Assembly: GCA_021806225.1 (NCBI GenBank)
Contig: JAJZXW010000026.1
Span: 50,197-114,196, forward strand
Reading direction: 5' to 3'
DNA: 64,000 nt
Source of the DNA: Nitrospirota bacterium
Lineage (GTDB): Bacteria; Nitrospirota; Leptospirillia; Leptospirillales; Leptospirillaceae
Shown: piece by piece, positions 13,797-23,255 of the stretch
Numbering within the stretch: position 1 is the stretch's first letter
Layout: each line of letters starts with the position of its first letter
Program-made: the position numbers and the translations under genes
The notes under the pieces: model-generated
Told to the model about the DNA's origin: nothing
Database searches by the model: none
What the model saw: only the letters and a program-made list of their open reading frames with translations

Positions 13797-13827
13797 AAAA
13801 CAATGGAAATTATGAGGAGAGCGACCG

Positions 13828-14058
13828 ATGTGTCTTGCCGTTCCGGCACTGGTGGAGGAGGTTCTCGGGGATTCGCGGGCCCGGGTGCGTCTGGGGGGCG
13901 TTCTTCAGGATATCTCGACCGTCCTGGTCGAGGATCTCCGGAAGGGGGACTATGTAATCGTCCACGTCGGATTCGCCCTGAGCCGGCTCGACCGGGACGA
14001 GGCGCAGAAGACCCTGGACCTCATGCGCGAAGCCGCCGGCTTCGAAGGAGGTGCCTGA
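13828..14058 (+). CDS. hypC: HypC chaperone
   Basis: MCLAVPALVEEV..DYVIVHVGFALSRLD. Confidence 0.96.
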   Translation: MCLAVPALVEEVLGDSRARVRLGGVLQDISTVLVEDLRKGDYVIVHVGFALSRLDRDEAQKTLDLMREAAGFEGGA

Positions 14059-15179
14059 TGTCCGATCTCCGCTACATCGAATCCTTCCGGGATCCGGACA
14101 TTGGGCGATCCCTGCTGGCCGCTCTGGCACTCGCGGCGAATCAGCTTCCCCGCTCTCCGGTCCGGATCATGGAGTTCTGCGGAGGCCACACCCACGCCTT
14201 TCACCGGTTCGGCCTTCTCGAACTGCTCCCCCCTCAAATCCGCATGGTCCACGGTCCGGGATGCCCGGTCTGCGTCCTGCCGAAGGGGCGCATCGACACG
14301 GCCATCGGCCTCGCCCTCGAAAAAAAGGTGGTGCTCGCGGTCTATGGGGATGTTCTCCGTGTCCCGGGCTCCCACGGCATGACCCTCATGAAGGCCCGCG
14401 CCAGAGGAGCGGACGTCCGGATCGTCGTCTCGGCCATGGATGCCCTGGCCCTGGCGGAGGTTCTCCCCGACCGGGAAATCGTCTTCTTCGCCATCGGATT
14501 CGAGACGACGACTCCCCCCACCGCGGCTGTGATCCTCGAAGCACGCCGGAGGAATCTCCGGAACTTTTCCGTCTTTGCAAACCATGTCCTGACTCCCCCC
14601 GCCATGGAAGCCATTTTGTCCGGGACCGCCCTGGACGGCATCGTCGGGCCGTCCCATGTCAGTACGGTCATCGGCACCCGGGCCTACGACTTTGTGTCCC
14701 GGAACCACAGGATTCCCCTTGTGGTGGCCGGCTTCGAGCCCCTGGACATCCTGCTGGCCCTCCGCATGCTCCTCGTCCAGATTGCGGAGGGGCGGGCGGA
14801 AGTGGAAAACGAATACGCGCGCGCAGTGGTGCCGCAAGGAAATCCCCGATCTCTCGAGCTGATCGAAAGGGTATTCGAAAGGGCGTCCTTCTTCGAATGG
14901 CGTGGGCTTGGAGCCTTGCCCCGGAGTGGCCTGGCAATACGGGAGGAGTTCGGATTCCTTGACGCCCAAAGGCGTTTCTCGGTCGAGGTCGGTCAGGTCT
15001 CCGACCCGGGGATCTGCGAATGCGGGGAGATCCTGAAGGGAGCCAAGGGCCCCCGGGATTGCCGGATATTCGGGACTCTCTGCACTCCCGACACGCCGGT
15101 CGGGGCCTGCATGGTCAGTGCCGAAGGGGCCTGTGCGGCCGTTTTTCACTATGGGGACCGGGAAGGGGCCGTCTCTTGA
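14058..15179 (+). CDS. hypD: HypD
   Basis: IMEFCGGHTHAFHRFGL, VHGPGCPVCVLP, IGFETTTPPTA, GPSHVSTVIG. Confidence 0.97.
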   Translation: MSDLRYIESFRDPDIGRSLLAALALAANQLPRSPVRIMEFCGGHTHAFHRFGLLELLPPQIRMVHGPGCPVCVLPKGRIDTAIGLALEKKVVLAVYGDVLRVPGSHGMTLMKARARGADVRIVVSAMDALALAEVLPDREIVFFAIGFETTTPPTAAVILEARRRNLRNFSVFANHVLTPPAMEAILSGTALDGIVGPSHVSTVIGTRAYDFVSRNHRIPLVVAGFEPLDILLALRMLLVQIAEGRAEVENEYARAVVPQGNPRSLELIERVFERASFFEWRGLGALPRSGLAIREEFGFLDAQRRFSVEVGQVSDPGICECGEILKGAKGPRDCRIFGTLCTPDTPVGACMVSAEGACAAVFHYGDREGAVS

Positions 15180-16237
15180 GCGGGGGGCGGGGAGCGCTGG
15201 GGGTCCGGCTCGACCTTGAAAAAGGGCGCGTGGAGATGGTCCATGGCAGCGGGGGACGGGCTTCGGCCCAGCTGGTGGAGGAGCTCTTCATCCCGGCGTT
15301 CGACAATCCGTGGCTCCGGATGGCGGGAGACCAGGCCCAGCTCGACCTGCCGGAGGGACGATGGGCCATGAGCACCGATTCCTTCGTGGTATCTCCCTAC
15401 TTCTTTCCGGGGGGAGATATCGGATCCCTCTCCATTCACGGGACGGTCAACGATCTGGCCATGGGAGGTGCCCGTCCGCTCTATCTGACGGCGGGGTTCG
15501 TCCTCGAGGAGGGATTCCCTCTTTCGGACCTTGTCCGGATCCTCCGGAGCATGGGGACGGCGGCCAGGGAGTGCGGCGTGTCTCTGGTGGCAGGAGACAC
15601 CAAGGTGGTGGAACGCGGCAAGGGGGACGGCATCTACATCAACACCTCCGGAATCGGACGGATTCCGGCCGGAGTCAGCCTCGATCCATCCGGCATCCGT
15701 CCGGGTGATGAAATCCTCATCTCGGGGCCGGTCGGCGATCACGGGGCCACCGTCCTGGCCGCCCGGGAGGAAGGAAGGATCGCAACGTCCCTTCGCTCGG
15801 ACTCAGCACCTCTTGACGGGCTAGTCGCGGCGATGCTCGTCTCCGGTCCGGGTCTCGTCTGCCTCCGGGATCCGACCCGGGGGGGGGTGGCCTCCACCCT
15901 GAACGAGTGGGCCCGGATTTCGGGTCTGTGCTTCGAGATCGAGGAGTCCGGGCTTCAGGTCCGTCCCGAGGTCCGGGGGATTTCCGAGCTTCTGGGGATC
16001 GACCCTCTCTATCTGGCCAACGAAGGCCGACTCATGGGAGTTTGCCGGCCCGAGGCCGCTGACCGGCTCCTGTCGGCCCTGCGCTCCAATCCGTCGGGTC
16101 GTGAGGCGACGCGGATCGGAAGGGTCGAGAAAGGAAGGCCGGGCCGCCCGGAGGGAACCGTCCGTATGAAGACCCTCATGGGCGGAACCCGGACGGTGGA
16201 CTGGCTTCTCGGGGATCCCCTCCCCCGGATTTGCTAG
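15176..16237 (+). CDS. hypE: HypE
   Basis: VEMVHGSGGRASAQLVEELF, MSTDSFVVSPYFFPGGDIG, VAGDTKVVERGKGDGIYINTSGIG; TTG start overlapping hypD stop (start uncertain). Confidence 0.95.
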   Translation: MSGGRGALGVRLDLEKGRVEMVHGSGGRASAQLVEELFIPAFDNPWLRMAGDQAQLDLPEGRWAMSTDSFVVSPYFFPGGDIGSLSIHGTVNDLAMGGARPLYLTAGFVLEEGFPLSDLVRILRSMGTAARECGVSLVAGDTKVVERGKGDGIYINTSGIGRIPAGVSLDPSGIRPGDEILISGPVGDHGATVLAAREEGRIATSLRSDSAPLDGLVAAMLVSGPGLVCLRDPTRGGVASTLNEWARISGLCFEIEESGLQVRPEVRGISELLGIDPLYLANEGRLMGVCRPEAADRLLSALRSNPSGREATRIGRVEKGRPGRPEGTVRMKTLMGGTRTVDWLLGDPLPRIC

Positions 16238-16251
16238 AAAGGAGGCACAGG

Positions 16252-17067
16252 ATGACAGGCCTTTCAGGAGTGGCCGCCGGAAGCGTCATTCTTGTCACGA
16301 TGGCTCTGGGGATGGGATTCCGCCACGGTCTAGATCCCGACCATCTGACGGCCATCGATGCCATCCTCCGGTTCCAGTCGGTCCGGAAAAGGAGGGTGGT
16401 CCGGTGGTCCGGTCTCTTTTTTTCCATGGGCCACGGGGTGGTCGTCATGACCCTCGGAGCCTGCATTCTCACTTTGGCTCTTCGTGTCCGGGTTCCTGCG
16501 GCCCTCTCCCTCGCCGGAGGTCTCGTTTCGGGGATTTTTCTCCTGGGCATGGCCGGGGCCAACGGTCTCTTTCTGGCCCGCTCGGAGGCGACGGTCCCTT
16601 TCGTTCCGGTGGGGTTCAGGGCCCGTCTTCTCCTCCGGGGCCTCCCCCTCGACAGGCCCGTCTTTCTCGTTTTTTTGGGAATGCTCTTTGCCGTTTCCTT
16701 CGACACCTTCTCCCAGACGGTGTTTTTTTCTCTGGCCGCCTCCTCCCTGGGAGGAAGGGGGGAGGGCCTGGCCGTAGGAGCGGCCTTCGTTCTGGGGATG
16801 TGTCTTTCCGACGGAGCGAATGGGCTATGGATCGCCCGGCTGATCGAACGATCCGACCGTCAGGGCGTCCGGCTTTCCCGCGTCATGGGATGGTCAGTGG
16901 TTCTCCTGAGCCTCCTCGTCGGGTTTTTTGTTCTTTCCACAAGCTTAACGAAAAACGTCATTCCCGATTCTCCGATGGGGGAAACCCTGACTGGGATCGG
17001 GGTGATTCTGCTCCTGTCCCTGGCCTACCTTCTCGGAAGCCGCCTTGTCCGGGACAGAGCCTCTTGA
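16252..17067 (+). CDS. Nickel/cobalt transporter, high-affinity permease type
   Basis: GFRHGLDPDHLTAID signature; multiple TM; end of hydrogenase locus. Confidence 0.85.
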   Translation: MTGLSGVAAGSVILVTMALGMGFRHGLDPDHLTAIDAILRFQSVRKRRVVRWSGLFFSMGHGVVVMTLGACILTLALRVRVPAALSLAGGLVSGIFLLGMAGANGLFLARSEATVPFVPVGFRARLLLRGLPLDRPVFLVFLGMLFAVSFDTFSQTVFFSLAASSLGGRGEGLAVGAAFVLGMCLSDGANGLWIARLIERSDRQGVRLSRVMGWSVVLLSLLVGFFVLSTSLTKNVIPDSPMGETLTGIGVILLLSLAYLLGSRLVRDRAS

Positions 17068-18733: not shown

Positions 18734-18911
18734 GGACTGATTGTGCCACAGGTCAGGACGACTTCCAAGGAGAGTACCCGGCATTCGGCTCCTTGCCGAT
18801 TGATCCCGGGAAATCTTGCGTTATAATTGGAAAACTGATCAGGGGGCGTATGGCCTTTCCCAAACGGCGGCGGGTCACGCCTCTTCCACGTCATCATCCG
18901 AAAGGACCGGA

Positions 18912-19664
18912 ATGTCGGAGTATTCCCTTCCTGCCAAGGAACGCAAGCAAGACGTCGTCCAGAACATGTTCACATCGGCAGCCAAGGCCTACGACCTCAA
19001 CAATTCGGTTCTGAGCCTGGGCCAGCACCACCGATGGAAGCGCCTGACGATCGACCTTCTGAAAATCGAAAAAGGACAGGTCATTCTGGATCTGTGCGGA
19101 GGAACCGCCGATCTGTCTCTTCTGGCCGCCGAAAAGGCGGGGGGAGATGGGCTTGTCATGACCGTCGATCTCAACATGGCGATGCTCCGGGTTGGTCTTT
19201 CCAAGGCCCGCTCCCGTGTCATCGACGGCCTCAAGGAAAGGATGAGCCGTGCGCGGCCGGTCATGATCCAGGCCAATGCGGAAAGCATCCCCCTTCCCTC
19301 CGGTACGGTCGACCGTCTGACGGTGGGGTTCGGGCTCAGAAATGTGACCAATCTCGACGTGGCCCTGGCTGAAATTTACAGGGTCCTGAAGCCGGGCGGG
19401 CGCTTTGCCTGCCTGGAGTTTTCCCATCCCGTGAACGCCCTTTGGGATGGATTGTACCGCTTCTATTCCTTCTTCATCCTGCCGAAGATCGGCAAATGGA
19501 TATCCAGGGACAATACAGGGATCTACGAGTACCTGCCCGCATCGATCGCAAAATTTCCGGATCAGGAGAGTTTTAGCGAGACGATCAGGAAGGCCGGCTT
19601 TTCAAATGTCGTCTACCGGAATCTGTCGGGAGGGATCGTCGCGATCCATATGGGAGAAAAGTAA
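18912..19664 (+). CDS. ubiE: UbiE/MenG-family quinone C-methyltransferase
   Basis: VVQNMFTSAAKAYDLNNSVLSLGQHHRWKR, LDLCGGTADLSLLAA, VGFGLRNVTNLDVALAEIYRVLKPGGRFACLEFS, YEYLPASIAKFPDQE. Confidence 0.93.
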   Translation: MSEYSLPAKERKQDVVQNMFTSAAKAYDLNNSVLSLGQHHRWKRLTIDLLKIEKGQVILDLCGGTADLSLLAAEKAGGDGLVMTVDLNMAMLRVGLSKARSRVIDGLKERMSRARPVMIQANAESIPLPSGTVDRLTVGFGLRNVTNLDVALAEIYRVLKPGGRFACLEFSHPVNALWDGLYRFYSFFILPKIGKWISRDNTGIYEYLPASIAKFPDQESFSETIRKAGFSNVVYRNLSGGIVAIHMGEK

Positions 19665-21235
19665 TGGAGGTAAAAGAGTTGCCCATGGTGGCGGGGACGG
19701 GAGATCGTCCGTCCAGCCTGTACCGGAGGGTTCTTTTCGTCTGGCTTCCCGTTCGCCCGATCTTTCCCGTGGGGATCGGATACCTTGCGAACTGGATTCA
19801 CCGGGAGCATCCGGAAGTCGCGCTCGAGGTCCTCGACCTGACCCGCTTCGAAGAGGCCGACCAGATGCCCGCACTGACGAAAAAAATTGCGGAGTTTTCC
19901 CCTGACCTTCTCGCCTATTCCTGGCGGGACGTCCAGATATTCGCTCCCCACGAGGGAGACAATTCCCTCCGGCGGGCCTTCGAATTCTATTACTCCCCCA
20001 ACCTTCTCACCCGGGCTTACGCCGCGTTGGACGGGGTTCGCATGGTCTGGAAATACCGTTCGGAATTCCACAAGAAGCTTCGCTTCATCAAGGAGGGCGT
20101 CCGAAGGGCTCCGAAGGCCCGCGTCATGGTCGGGGGCGGGGCCTTTTCGGTTTTCGCCGAACAGATCATCCGCCTGCTTCCGGAAGGCGTGATCGGGGTG
20201 GTGGGGGAGGGAGAGACGGCCCTGATCAAGACCCTCGAAGGGCGTCCGGTCGATGACGAACGCGTCATCACCCGGAAGGGTACGCAGATCGTTTTGGGAA
20301 AGAAGGCGGGGGCAGTGGAAATACGGCGTGCTCCTTTCGATCTGGCCTATCTCGAATCCGTATTCCCGGGCCACGAGATGTATCACGGCAAAACCGTCGG
20401 AATCCAGACCAAGCGTGGCTGTCCTTACGGATGCTCCTTCTGTCTGTATACCTATATCGAGGGAAAGCGGGTCTACTACCGTGATCCGGAAGACGTGGTG
20501 GACGAGATCCGCCAGTATCGGGACCGATGGGGAATCCGGAACTTCTGGTTTGCAGACGCCCAGTTCATTCCTGGCGTCAAGGCGGTTCCCGAGGCCATTG
20601 CCCTTCTCACGGCCCTCCGGGACAGTCGCCTCGACATCACCTGGAGCGGCTATATCCGGACCAGTCTCATTTCTCCGGAAATGGCGCGGCTGATGGTGGA
20701 GTCAGGAATGGGAGACCTCGAAGTGGCGATCACCTCCGGCTCCCAGGAGATTCTGGACTCCCTCAAGATGGGCTTCCGACTGGAAGGACTGATGGAAGGA
20801 TGCAGAAACCTCAAGGCCGCCGGATACAAGGGAAAGATCATCCTGAATTACTCCCTGAACGCGCCGGGCGAGACACCGGAATCACTGGCCGAGGCCGTCG
20901 AAAGCTACGAGGCCATCTGCGGCATCTTCGGACCGGAGAATGTCTATCCTATGGTCTTTTTCCTGGCGGTCCAGCCCCACACGAGCTTCGAGAAGCGTCT
21001 CATGCGTGAGGGGTGGCTCGACCCCGACTACGATCCCATTTCGCTGAACCCGTGGACCATCCGCAAGCTCCTCTACAATCCGGGCCCCCTCGGGGAGCTG
21101 ATCGCGAAGGCCTGTCTTCTGGCTTGGGACATCGAGCCCATGGCGATGGGACGGGTTGTGATGCGTGAGATCAAGAAATCCCTCGGTGCCGTCGGAATAT
21201 CCTCCAAGGGGTCGGTCGTGGTCCAGGCTTCGTGA
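19664..21235 (+). CDS. B12-binding-domain radical SAM protein
   Basis: N-terminal cobalamin-binding-like PVGIGYLANWI..; radical SAM cluster KRGCPYGCSFCLYTY (CxxxCxxC); 523 aa. Confidence 0.88.
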   Translation: MEVKELPMVAGTGDRPSSLYRRVLFVWLPVRPIFPVGIGYLANWIHREHPEVALEVLDLTRFEEADQMPALTKKIAEFSPDLLAYSWRDVQIFAPHEGDNSLRRAFEFYYSPNLLTRAYAALDGVRMVWKYRSEFHKKLRFIKEGVRRAPKARVMVGGGAFSVFAEQIIRLLPEGVIGVVGEGETALIKTLEGRPVDDERVITRKGTQIVLGKKAGAVEIRRAPFDLAYLESVFPGHEMYHGKTVGIQTKRGCPYGCSFCLYTYIEGKRVYYRDPEDVVDEIRQYRDRWGIRNFWFADAQFIPGVKAVPEAIALLTALRDSRLDITWSGYIRTSLISPEMARLMVESGMGDLEVAITSGSQEILDSLKMGFRLEGLMEGCRNLKAAGYKGKIILNYSLNAPGETPESLAEAVESYEAICGIFGPENVYPMVFFLAVQPHTSFEKRLMREGWLDPDYDPISLNPWTIRKLLYNPGPLGELIAKACLLAWDIEPMAMGRVVMREIKKSLGAVGISSKGSVVVQAS

Positions 21236-21765
21236 GCGAAAAAGCGGAGAGCGAGTCCATGGAGGCGGTCCTCGAGGAACCTCTTCCTCCCGGATTTCCG
21301 CTTCTTCCGGGACCCTTTCGAATGCTTCTGGGTCTGGACGGAACCCTGACCCGTTCCCTGACCTTTCTTTCGGGGGAGAGGGTCGAGGTCGAGACCGTTC
21401 TCCTCCCGGATGCTCCCGAGGGGATCAGGAAGGTTTATCTTCGGGTGCCCTCGATCGGCCGGCTCGTCTTTGCGAGGACGCGCCTCCTTTCCATCCCGTC
21501 GCGGGAGGAGGCTCCATGGATTGCCTCTCTCATGCGCGGGGATCTTCCCATCGGCCAGTCGATGGAGGCCCGGTACGGACCCCTGACCAAGGACGAGTTT
21601 TCCGTTTTCTCCGTCTCCACCCCCTTCGATCCCCACGGGCCCCGGGAGTCTGGAGGGACATGGGCTCGCTCCTACCGGATGCGGACCCGCGAGGGACTCG
21701 CCCTCCGGATCGAGGAGTTCTTCCTGGACGCTCTTTTTCGGCTTGCCGGCGGAGGCGGCCTATGA
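21232..21765 (+). CDS. UbiC-like chorismate pyruvate-lyase family protein
   Basis: FRMLLGLDGTLTRSLTFLSGERVEVETVLL..VYLRVPSIGRLVFARTRL..IGQSMEARYGPLTKDEFSVF..WARSYRM resembles the chorismate lyase fold; immediately upstream of ubiA. Confidence 0.7.
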   Translation: MSEKAESESMEAVLEEPLPPGFPLLPGPFRMLLGLDGTLTRSLTFLSGERVEVETVLLPDAPEGIRKVYLRVPSIGRLVFARTRLLSIPSREEAPWIASLMRGDLPIGQSMEARYGPLTKDEFSVFSVSTPFDPHGPRESGGTWARSYRMRTREGLALRIEEFFLDALFRLAGGGGL

Positions 21766-22628
21766 CTCGGCGTTTTTCAGCGACTCTGGATCTGATTCGC
21801 TTCGACAGGCCCATCGGCTGGGTTCTTCTTTTTCTCCCGGCGGGATGGGCCCTTCTCCTTGCACGTCCTGGAGAGGTCCCTTGGAAATGGGTCGCCGTCT
21901 TTCTCGCAGGCGCCTTCCTGACCCGTTCTGCGGGTTGCGTCGTGAACGACATCTTCGACAGGAAGATCGACCGGGAGGTAGCCCGGACCAGAATGCGGCC
22001 CCTGGCCGACGGACGCCTCTCCGTCGCTTGGGCCCTCGGGGTTTTTCTTCTTCTGACCCTCCTCTCGGCCTCCCTTCTCACATTTTTTTCGGCAAAGGCC
22101 ATCCTGGTGGCAGTCGCGGGATATGGTTCTGCGGTGGTCTATCCGCTCATGAAGCGATTCTTTCCTCTTCCCCAGCTTTTCATGGGGATTCCCTTCGGAG
22201 CGACGGCTCCTCTCATGGCCTGGGTCCAGCTTACGGGAACCTTCTCGCTCCCGGGAGTTGAGATTGCCCTGGCCGGCCTCTTCTGGTCCACGGCCTATGA
22301 CCTCATCTATGCGGTGGCGGATCTTCCGGACGACCGGAAGGCCGGTGTCCGGTCGGGAGCCGTCACCTTCGGACCGTCTCTCTGGGCCGTCTTCCTCTTC
22401 TTCTCCGCTCTGGCCGCACTCCTTCTGTGGCAGGCGGGACGATCACTTCCCCAGTCCGGATGGCTCCTGCTCTCGATCGGTCTTTTCTTCTCAGCCATCT
22501 TCTGGCAATCCCTCCGGATGCGCTCGGGGTTGAGCGAAGATGAGCCGCTCCGTCTCTTCCGCTCCCATGCGCTCCTGGGAGGGCTCATTCTGGCGGGCTT
22601 CTGGTCCTCCTCGCCGATTCTTGTCTGA
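21762..22628 (+). CDS. ubiA: 4-hydroxybenzoate polyprenyltransferase
   Basis: IRFDRPIGWVLLFLPAGWAL, GCVVNDIFDRKIDREVARTRMRPLADG, YDLIYAVADLPDDRKAGVRS. Confidence 0.95.
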   Translation: MTRRFSATLDLIRFDRPIGWVLLFLPAGWALLLARPGEVPWKWVAVFLAGAFLTRSAGCVVNDIFDRKIDREVARTRMRPLADGRLSVAWALGVFLLLTLLSASLLTFFSAKAILVAVAGYGSAVVYPLMKRFFPLPQLFMGIPFGATAPLMAWVQLTGTFSLPGVEIALAGLFWSTAYDLIYAVADLPDDRKAGVRSGAVTFGPSLWAVFLFFSALAALLLWQAGRSLPQSGWLLLSIGLFFSAIFWQSLRMRSGLSEDEPLRLFRSHALLGGLILAGFWSSSPILV

Positions 22629-22670: not shown

Positions 22671-23255
22671 ATGGAGGCTTCGATGTTTTCCAGAATCAAA
22701 ATCCTGCTCCTGACCCTGCTCCTGTCCGCCCTTATTTTTGCGCCGACCCTCTCCTTTGCCCTCTCCCCAATCAGGGTGACGAGTTCCGCCTTCAGAAACG
22801 GGGGGAGGATCGGGTCGAAATACGTTTTTTCCGGGTTCGGATGCACCGGTAAAAACGTCTCCCCCGGGATCCGCTGGGGGAGGCTTCCGCGGGGGACGAA
22901 AAGTGTGGCGGTGACCGTGTACGATCCTGACGCTCCCACCGGTTCCGGCTGGTGGCATTGGGTGGTCTACGACATTCCGGCCACGGTCCACGCCCTTCCT
23001 GAGGGGGCGGGGACCAAGGATGGCCATCGGCTTCCGGCCGGATCCCTTCAGGCCGTGACCGACTTTGGAGCCCCGGGTTATGGAGGGCCCTGTCCGCCGA
23101 AGGGCGATCGTCCCCATCACTACATCGTCACGGTCTATGCTCTCAAGACGGCCAAGTTGCCTGTGTCACCGACCGCATCTCCGGCCCAGATCGGCTATTT
23201 TCTCCATTTCGCGACCATCGGAAAGGGAAATCTCGTGGGGCGTTATGGTCGGTAG
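22671..23255 (+). CDS. YbhB/YbcL-family (PEBP-like) protein with signal peptide
   Basis: DPDAPTGSGWWHWVVYDIPATV, YGGPCPPKGDRPHHYIVTVYAL. Confidence 0.92.
   Translation: MEASMFSRIKILLLTLLLSALIFAPTLSFALSPIRVTSSAFRNGGRIGSKYVFSGFGCTGKNVSPGIRWGRLPRGTKSVAVTVYDPDAPTGSGWWHWVVYDIPATVHALPEGAGTKDGHRLPAGSLQAVTDFGAPGYGGPCPPKGDRPHHYIVTVYALKTAKLPVSPTASPAQIGYFLHFATIGKGNLVGRYGR

Follow-up and report, generated by a model that had tools for sequence, protein, structure and literature searches.

What does a B12-binding-type radical SAM enzyme do in the middle of a quinone operon? The locus that raises this question lies on the + strand at 18912-22628 of our window, a 64,000-nucleotide stretch of a Nitrospirota genome. 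The first-pass annotation described four co-oriented, tightly coupled genes here, and all four reading frames are indeed open. In operon order they encode a UbiE-type methyltransferase (18912..19664), a Slr0320-family radical SAM protein of B12-binding type (19664..21235), a divergent chorismate lyase-like protein (21232..21765) and UbiA (21762..22628). The junctions are TAATG, with one base shared at 19664; GTGA, with four bases shared at 21232-21235; and ATGA, with four shared at 21762-21765. An Rfam scan of the window gave no matches. The four-gene order was identical in 5/5 other Leptospirillum-family loci examined with their flanks (L032-L036), and the pair formed by the first two genes was found again across the phylum Nitrospirota, so the cluster is not a product of chance.

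The top NCBIfam model for the UbiE-like protein is MpqE (NF052510, 3.1e-96), a C-methyltransferase of the UbiE family; its predicted role is to place the ring methyl specific to methyl-plastoquinone (mPQ) beside the prenyl chain. Its score of 321 bits, against 240 bits for the next model, is just under the curated cut-off of 335. Leptospirillum-family members score 316-343 bits and Nitrospira members mostly 380-416, which suggests that the model is centred on Nitrospira and that the window protein is a near miss. The Pfam match is PF01209 (2.5e-69), and the frame is already open from a TTG at 18816. MpqE had been missed as the top curated match when the sequence was annotated.

mPQ itself has been described before in Nitrospirota, as has part of its pathway. 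The compound is 2-prenyl-3,5,6-trimethylbenzoquinone, its 5,6-methyls are those of plastoquinone, and it has been measured in Nitrospira inopinata and N. moscoviensis (PMC12324825). That work and the pathway of Elling et al. 2025, as cited in PMC13386864, bear out the annotation's mention of unusual quinones in the phylum; its expectation of a quinone derived from 4-hydroxybenzoate is supported too. The label “high-potential” holds only in a relative sense, as the E0' of mPQ (57-59 mV) lies between those of menaquinone and plastoquinone (PMC12324825). The cluster resembles the Mpq pathway of Nitrospirota (Elling et al. 2025, PNAS e2421994122; Bale et al. 2025) in its MpqE top match, its UbiC-like and UbiA partners, its phylum and its arrangement in one operon. 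It differs from the pathway as listed in PMC13386864 (MpqA-E), where no radical SAM enzyme appears. In NCBIfam (June 2026), the radical SAM family carries neither an Mpq name nor a curated mPQ function.

The third gene, mpqC, starts with GTG and encodes a chorismate lyase-like protein (predicted to take chorismate to 4-hydroxybenzoate) that matches the NCBIfam model of cyanobacterial chorismate lyase, NF037993, at 2.2e-5 and PF01947 (Rv2949c-like) at 1.1e-3, the latter under the Pfam cut-off. A relative in family f8 (L040) matches PF01947 at 9e-17. The annotation had proposed comparing a structure prediction for 21232-21765 with UbiC; the model (pLDDT 76) has as its top PDB match 2nwi, a DUF98 protein (E 3.1e-6, TM 0.58/0.64). 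Residue E162 (codon 21715..21717) is invariant in 6 family members and aligns with what we take to be the catalytic Glu155 in the TELFL motif of E. coli UbiC, while in L052 a Cys stands in place of an Arg close to the active-site strand. The fourth gene, mpqA, encodes a UbiA-type 4-hydroxybenzoate polyprenyltransferase (PF01040, 4.9e-49; TIGR01474 ubiA_proteo, 1.4e-65, 222 bits, under the cut-off of 275) whose translation contains both Asp-rich motifs, NDIFDRKID (NDxxDxxxD) and DLPDD (DxxDD). It is the only UbiA-family gene recovered from the 67%-complete source genome, which may count against the case, raised in the annotation, of an organism that makes nothing but menaquinone.

The radical SAM protein matches NF045585 (rSAM_slr0320) at 5e-144 and 481 bits. 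The curated cut-off of 775 bits is reached by all cyanobacterial matches and by 0 Nitrospirota members, and on their scores we file the Nitrospirota proteins as a homologous sister group of the Slr0320 family and not as curated members. Homology to the family is full-length, with about 40-44% identity to cyanobacterial members and all motifs in common; the window protein differs in its sub-threshold score and in its setting, a non-phototroph and a quinone operon. Its family name, “photosystem II high light acclimation radical SAM protein”, therefore cannot describe its function. The next NCBIfam models, BzaD (B12 lower-ligand) and a ladderane-type lipid radical SAM protein, reach 143-147 bits, and we rejected both roles because these scores are far under that for Slr0320. 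A tree splits the Slr0320 family from five paralogues with a support of 75 and a very distant outgroup. Grouping with a characterized non-quinone family had been a concern; the protein instead belongs with the Slr0320 family, in which the single member studied so far is itself suspected of plastoquinone methylation. In the radical SAM tree, cyanobacteria stand beside the Leptospirillum family at an SH-aLRT of 90 (unstarred), which is too weak for a direction of transfer to be argued.

The protein carries the radical SAM domain (PF04055, 2.4e-18) with a CxxxCxxC motif for the [4Fe-4S] cluster at 20420..20443. These cysteines (C253, C257, C260) are invariant in 22 aligned family members, four cyanobacteria among them, and in 16 Nitrospirota members. 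A putative N-terminal B12-binding-type Rossmann domain is matched by PF02310 over residues 137-187 (5.6e-6, under the Pfam cut-off) and ends in a GGGAF...GEGE stretch (residues 157-184, 20132..20215) whose GGGA and GEGE are invariant in the same 22-member alignment. The structure model (pLDDT 85) has as its top PDB match the Trp-C2 methyltransferase TsrM (E 2.4e-21, TM 0.62). Like TsrM and other class B radical SAM methyltransferases, the protein has this predicted fold, the CxxxCxxC motif and a putative B12-binding-type N-terminal domain, and its identity to TsrM is about 21%. Since TsrM methylates an aromatic carbon, we counted the match in favor of ring C-methylation. The predicted fold matches AprD4 as well, an enzyme that is not known to bind cobalamin.

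Among 296 Nitrospirota genomes, the radical SAM gene occurs in 133 and an mpqE-type gene in 142, and 133/133 carriers of the former have the latter (Fisher 4e-74). In 121/134 cases it immediately follows mpqE in the same orientation, with a median gap of 73 bases. The linkage to ubiA that the annotation emphasized is confined to the Leptospirillum family and family f8; the linkage that extends across the phylum is to mpqE. Nine genomes have mpqE and no radical SAM match: three stop at contig edges (G054, G186, G240), five are losses, and G184 is the ninth. Masking was rejected as a cause, as there are no N runs in the loci.

In cyanobacteria, the Slr0320-family protein is present in 107/244 Cyanobacteriota genomes and is all-or-none, scoring >925 bits or being absent. 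It follows the photosystem II (PSII) reaction-centre genes (both in 97 genomes, neither in 130; Fisher 5e-47) and occurs in 97/104 PSII-bearing genomes. It was not found in the other 7, six of which group in one early-looking Gloeobacterales-like clade, where another enzyme would be needed if plastoquinone is made. At 1e-30, Synechococcus elongatus is the single one of 14 control genomes with the protein, and the ubiquinone and menaquinone makers lack it. Since the protein tracks mpqE in Nitrospirota and PSII in cyanobacteria and is not seen in these controls, it appears to accompany the two quinones with the 5,6-dimethyl pattern, mPQ and plastoquinone. According to PMC8065906, the QA-to-QB step is slow in a Synechocystis slr0320 mutant, and plastoquinone methylation was the role suspected by the authors; growth is normal in normal light, so the Slr0320 step is not essential there.

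A further clue to function comes from genomes in which the gene is lost or broken. Placed on the mpqE tree, the radical SAM gene is decayed or gone in six separate Nitrospira lineages, and in five of these the genome carries a methyltransferase of cyanobacterial MPBQ/MSBQ type. In three of them it occupies the radical SAM locus, its orientation varying from case to case. In G248, N- and C-terminal radical SAM scars stand on either side of an inserted FAD monooxygenase and SAM methyltransferase; G050 has a C-terminal scar with the same cassette; and in G290 the methyltransferase immediately follows mpqE. The cassette is elsewhere in the genome in G188, whose radical SAM gene is frameshifted, and in G148 (Nitrospira japonica NJ1, PMC5767232), which retains a scar. 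In G262, a MAG, the radical SAM gene is lost and the methyltransferase was not found. The Nitrospira methyltransferase is 72-79% identical to one present in 11/11 cyanobacterial genomes tested. We named its type by comparison with what we take to be the sequence of Synechocystis Sll0418, the MPBQ/MSBQ methyltransferase, an ordinary SAM-dependent class I enzyme that is not radical-based and has no sequence kinship to the radical SAM protein, and that we propose as its functional equivalent. As some relatives that lost the radical SAM gene carry this borrowed enzyme, three times at the very locus, the radical SAM protein is very probably a ring methylase. The ring-modifying role suggested by the annotation, in its C-methylation form, thus gains support from genomic association with mpqE and from displacement.

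A decay unrelated to a general or mobile methyltransferase that lies beside mpqE by chance could mimic such displacement. Close copies (79-82%) on cyanobacterial plasmids and the loss in G262 would fit this, as would the 19 Nitrospira genomes in which both genes are present and the methyltransferase lies elsewhere in the genome. The cyanobacteria checked have both genes as well, so neither simply duplicates the other. When plasmids were searched with the radical SAM protein, nothing closer came up than HpnJ-like and other radical SAM proteins, all distant and at coverage <=50%. However, the three insertions at one locus differ in orientation, that of G248 lies inside gene scars, and 5/6 independent losses fall in the minority of genomes carrying the methyltransferase, so that we consider chance unlikely. 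Loss and methyltransferase are moderately associated (5/24 vs 1/53, Fisher p 0.010), and a tree-aware paired test, which is underpowered, gave p about 0.4. An action on some other target, such as a protein, a cofactor or the isoprenoid tail, with a regulatory adjacency to mpqE, would suit the BzaD and ladderane-type secondary matches and the PSII phenotypes (psbH, psbI and PsbL altered) through which the available text of PMC8065906 describes Slr0320. We judge it quite improbable, given the scores of those matches, the occurrence of the protein in non-phototrophic Nitrospirota, its nearly universal adjacency to mpqE and the takeover of its locus by a methyltransferase of quinone-ring type.

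Another ring step, either hydroxylation or decarboxylation-linked oxidation in place of an O2-dependent hydroxylase, deserves separate mention. The annotation noted the lack of a ring hydroxylase, and this is true of the four-gene cluster; the radical SAM enzyme belongs to an O2-independent type, and an FAD monooxygenase is also part of the displacing cassette. However, the source genome has a candidate UbiH/COQ6-type FAD monooxygenase (PF01494) elsewhere (G000:C15:10277-11530). This type occurs in 136/296 Nitrospirota genomes, nearly the mpqE set and including most carriers of the radical SAM gene, and the family f9 genome G008, which has no FAD enzyme, has a UbiU/UbiV pair instead. The radical SAM protein is thus not needed to explain hydroxylation. 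In G148 and G248, the native FAD gene persists only as remnants beside the cassette copy, so the cassette appears to supply two substitutes, its FAD enzyme for that gene and its methyltransferase for the radical SAM gene. We rejected the hydroxylase role, which these gene contents make very unlikely indeed.

The genes and their order, the motifs, the predicted fold, the association across the phylum and the displacement by an MPBQ/MSBQ methyltransferase of cyanobacterial type are observed here. From them we infer a route in which methylation by the radical SAM protein, its position, the binding of cobalamin and the order of steps are all provisional. MpqC would make 4-hydroxybenzoate from chorismate and MpqA would prenylate it; decarboxylation and para-hydroxylation by genes outside the cluster would give a 2-prenyl-1,4-quinol, whose three free ring positions would then all be C-methylated. 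MpqE would add the mPQ-specific methyl beside the prenyl chain (C3), and the Slr0320-family protein, as a class B radical SAM enzyme, would use methylcobalamin and a second SAM to add one or both plastoquinone-shared methyls (C5, C6). That the cluster is the core of mPQ biosynthesis, with MpqE acting at C3 and the radical SAM protein at C5/C6, is in our view probable. A broader version, to which we give slightly less than an even chance, is that this single cobalamin-type enzyme sets both C5/C6 methyls of mPQ and, in cyanobacteria, one or both of the plastoquinone ones. It would then be the inherited O2-independent route to 5,6-dimethylbenzoquinones, which aerobic Nitrospira, N. japonica among them, would have repeatedly exchanged for a cyanobacterial methyltransferase that tolerates O2 and comes with an FAD hydroxylase.

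The class C radical SAM menaquinone methylases MenK/MqnK likewise methylate a quinone-ring carbon; they have no B12 domain, act on naphthoquinones and are not known to be homologous beyond the radical SAM core. We know of no quinone methylase among the class B (cobalamin) radical SAM methyltransferases, and to our knowledge the protein, if our reading is true, would be the first quinone methylase among B12-dependent radical SAM enzymes. The accessible literature appears to have gaps on the C-methylation of 4-hydroxybenzoate-derived plastoquinone and of mPQ. A tie to mPQ in a non-phototroph separates the Slr0320 family from PSII and points to the quinone ring as the substrate, and the idea bears on the origins of benzoquinones before or without O2. 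It can be tested by strain comparison, since the cultured Nitrospira japonica NJ1 has a natural deletion together with a replacement enzyme.

We checked the open reading frames and junctions of the four overlapping genes that the first-pass annotation had placed at 18912-22628, and all four are real and lie on the same strand. The UbiE-like product of 18912-19664 matched best the curated methyl-plastoquinone (mPQ) methyltransferase MpqE (321 bits; next model 240), and the radical SAM protein (19664-21235) matched best the cyanobacterial Slr0320 family (481 bits; next model 147). Matches of the third protein (21232-21765) to cyanobacterial chorismate lyase and Rv2949c-like models were weak; its predicted structure is nearest the DUF98 protein 2nwi, and the catalytic Glu is conserved. 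The fourth (21762-22628) matches UbiA. The genome carrying the window belongs to the Leptospirillum family of Nitrospirota, is 1.43 Mb and is 67% complete.

In Nitrospira, methyl-plastoquinones are the sole quinones detected; the ring bears the prenyl chain at C2, an extra methyl at C3 and, at C5 and C6, the methyls shared with plastoquinone, and E0' is 57-59 mV (PMC12324825). A tentative pathway was reconstructed by Elling et al. 2025; PMC13386864, which cites it, takes over the names MpqA-MpqE, PlqA, PlqC and PlqD and mentions no radical SAM enzyme. The closest structural match of our model of the radical SAM protein (pLDDT 85) is the cobalamin radical SAM enzyme TsrM, an indole-ring methylase, followed by MgmA, AprD4 and OxsB. 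UbiE methylates the position next to the prenyl chain in the ubiquinone pathway. On the best reading, the radical SAM protein would act as a class B radical SAM C-methylase that supplies one or both of the C5/C6 methyls of mPQ, and the UbiE homologue MpqE would supply the C3 methyl. NCBIfam (June 2026) names the Nitrospira protein by Slr0320 only. Priority for the assignment is uncertain because the Elling reconstruction may already include a radical SAM methylase.

The radical SAM protein occurs in 133 of 296 Nitrospirota genomes in an all-or-none manner (at least 426 bits, save one broken gene), and mpqE-type genes occur in 142, covering all 133. It directly follows mpqE on the same strand for 121 of 134 genes. 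The complete four-gene unit is confined to the Leptospirillum family and one case in family f8, with only the mpqE-radical SAM pair elsewhere.

No Slr0320-family gene was found in Nitrospira genomes G050, G148, G248, G262 and G290, and the gene is broken in G188. On the mpqE tree, these losses represent six separate events, five of them in genomes bearing an MSBQ-type methyltransferase (Fisher 0.010, kinship disregarded). In G248, the first ~30 and last ~60 codons persist as scars flanking an inserted FAD monooxygenase and methyltransferase; G148 retains scars of both ends and G050 a C-terminal scar, and in G290 the methyltransferase directly adjoins mpqE. The two inserted genes form a mobile pair in Nitrospira (loci L155:2547-5244, L154:2933-5646, L176, L185 and L177). 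The displacing methyltransferase is 77% identical to what we take to be the Sll0418 sequence, and 72-79% identical to a protein found in 11/11 cyanobacterial genomes tested. Its type occurs in 24/296 Nitrospirota genomes, every one in family f10. In Synechocystis, the MPBQ/MSBQ enzyme catalyses the last methylation of the plastoquinone ring (PMC5159609). MSBQ-type methyltransferase genes that share 79-82% identity with the Nitrospira copy are also carried by plasmids of cyanobacteria (NZ_CP054697, NZ_CP124544, NZ_CP014003 and others), a possible transfer route.

Among 244 Cyanobacteriota genomes, 107 encode an Slr0320-family protein, and 97 of these also carry a photosystem II (PSII) reaction-centre gene; the other 10 have none above threshold, with assembly gaps possible. 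Since Slr0320-family proteins and Sll0418-type enzymes are both kept in cyanobacteria, each may add one methyl there. The Slr0320-family protein was not found in seven PSII-bearing genomes of the 244. Six of these (G356, G409, G419, G451, G470 and G511, Gloeobacterales-like) cluster in one early-looking clade of the MSBQ-type methyltransferase tree, so the absence is probably real there, which limits how far a need for this protein can be extended to all plastoquinone makers. Two MSBQ-type methyltransferases are encoded in G511.

There are better ring-hydroxylase candidates than the radical SAM protein, because homologues of the inserted FAD enzyme, a divergent UbiH/COQ6-type protein, track mpqE (136/296 Nitrospirota genomes, almost the same set) and because a family f9 genome, G008, encodes UbiU/UbiV. 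The window's own genome has a divergent UbiH/COQ6-type monooxygenase (contig C15, 10277-11530; locus L194:7275-8618) among these homologues (32% identity), and it is a candidate mPQ ring hydroxylase. In G148 and G248, the native FAD gene survives only as fragments alongside the inserted copy. No FAD enzyme homologue was found in G008, which bears mpqE, the radical SAM gene and an adjacent UbiU/UbiV pair (contig C42; L209:5489-7419; 397 and 282 bits). UbiU and UbiV are O2-independent ring hydroxylases, and judging from its gene content G008 is a candidate for a fully anaerobic mPQ pathway.

Adjoining the quinone cluster, 13803-17067 encodes HypD, a HypE-like AIRS protein and a NicO nickel transporter, which suggests hydrogenase maturation. 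A phosphatidylethanolamine-binding-type protein (PF01161) is encoded at 22671-23255, 42 bases after ubiA on the same strand, and an ORF of similar size also lies 3' of ubiA in locus L036.
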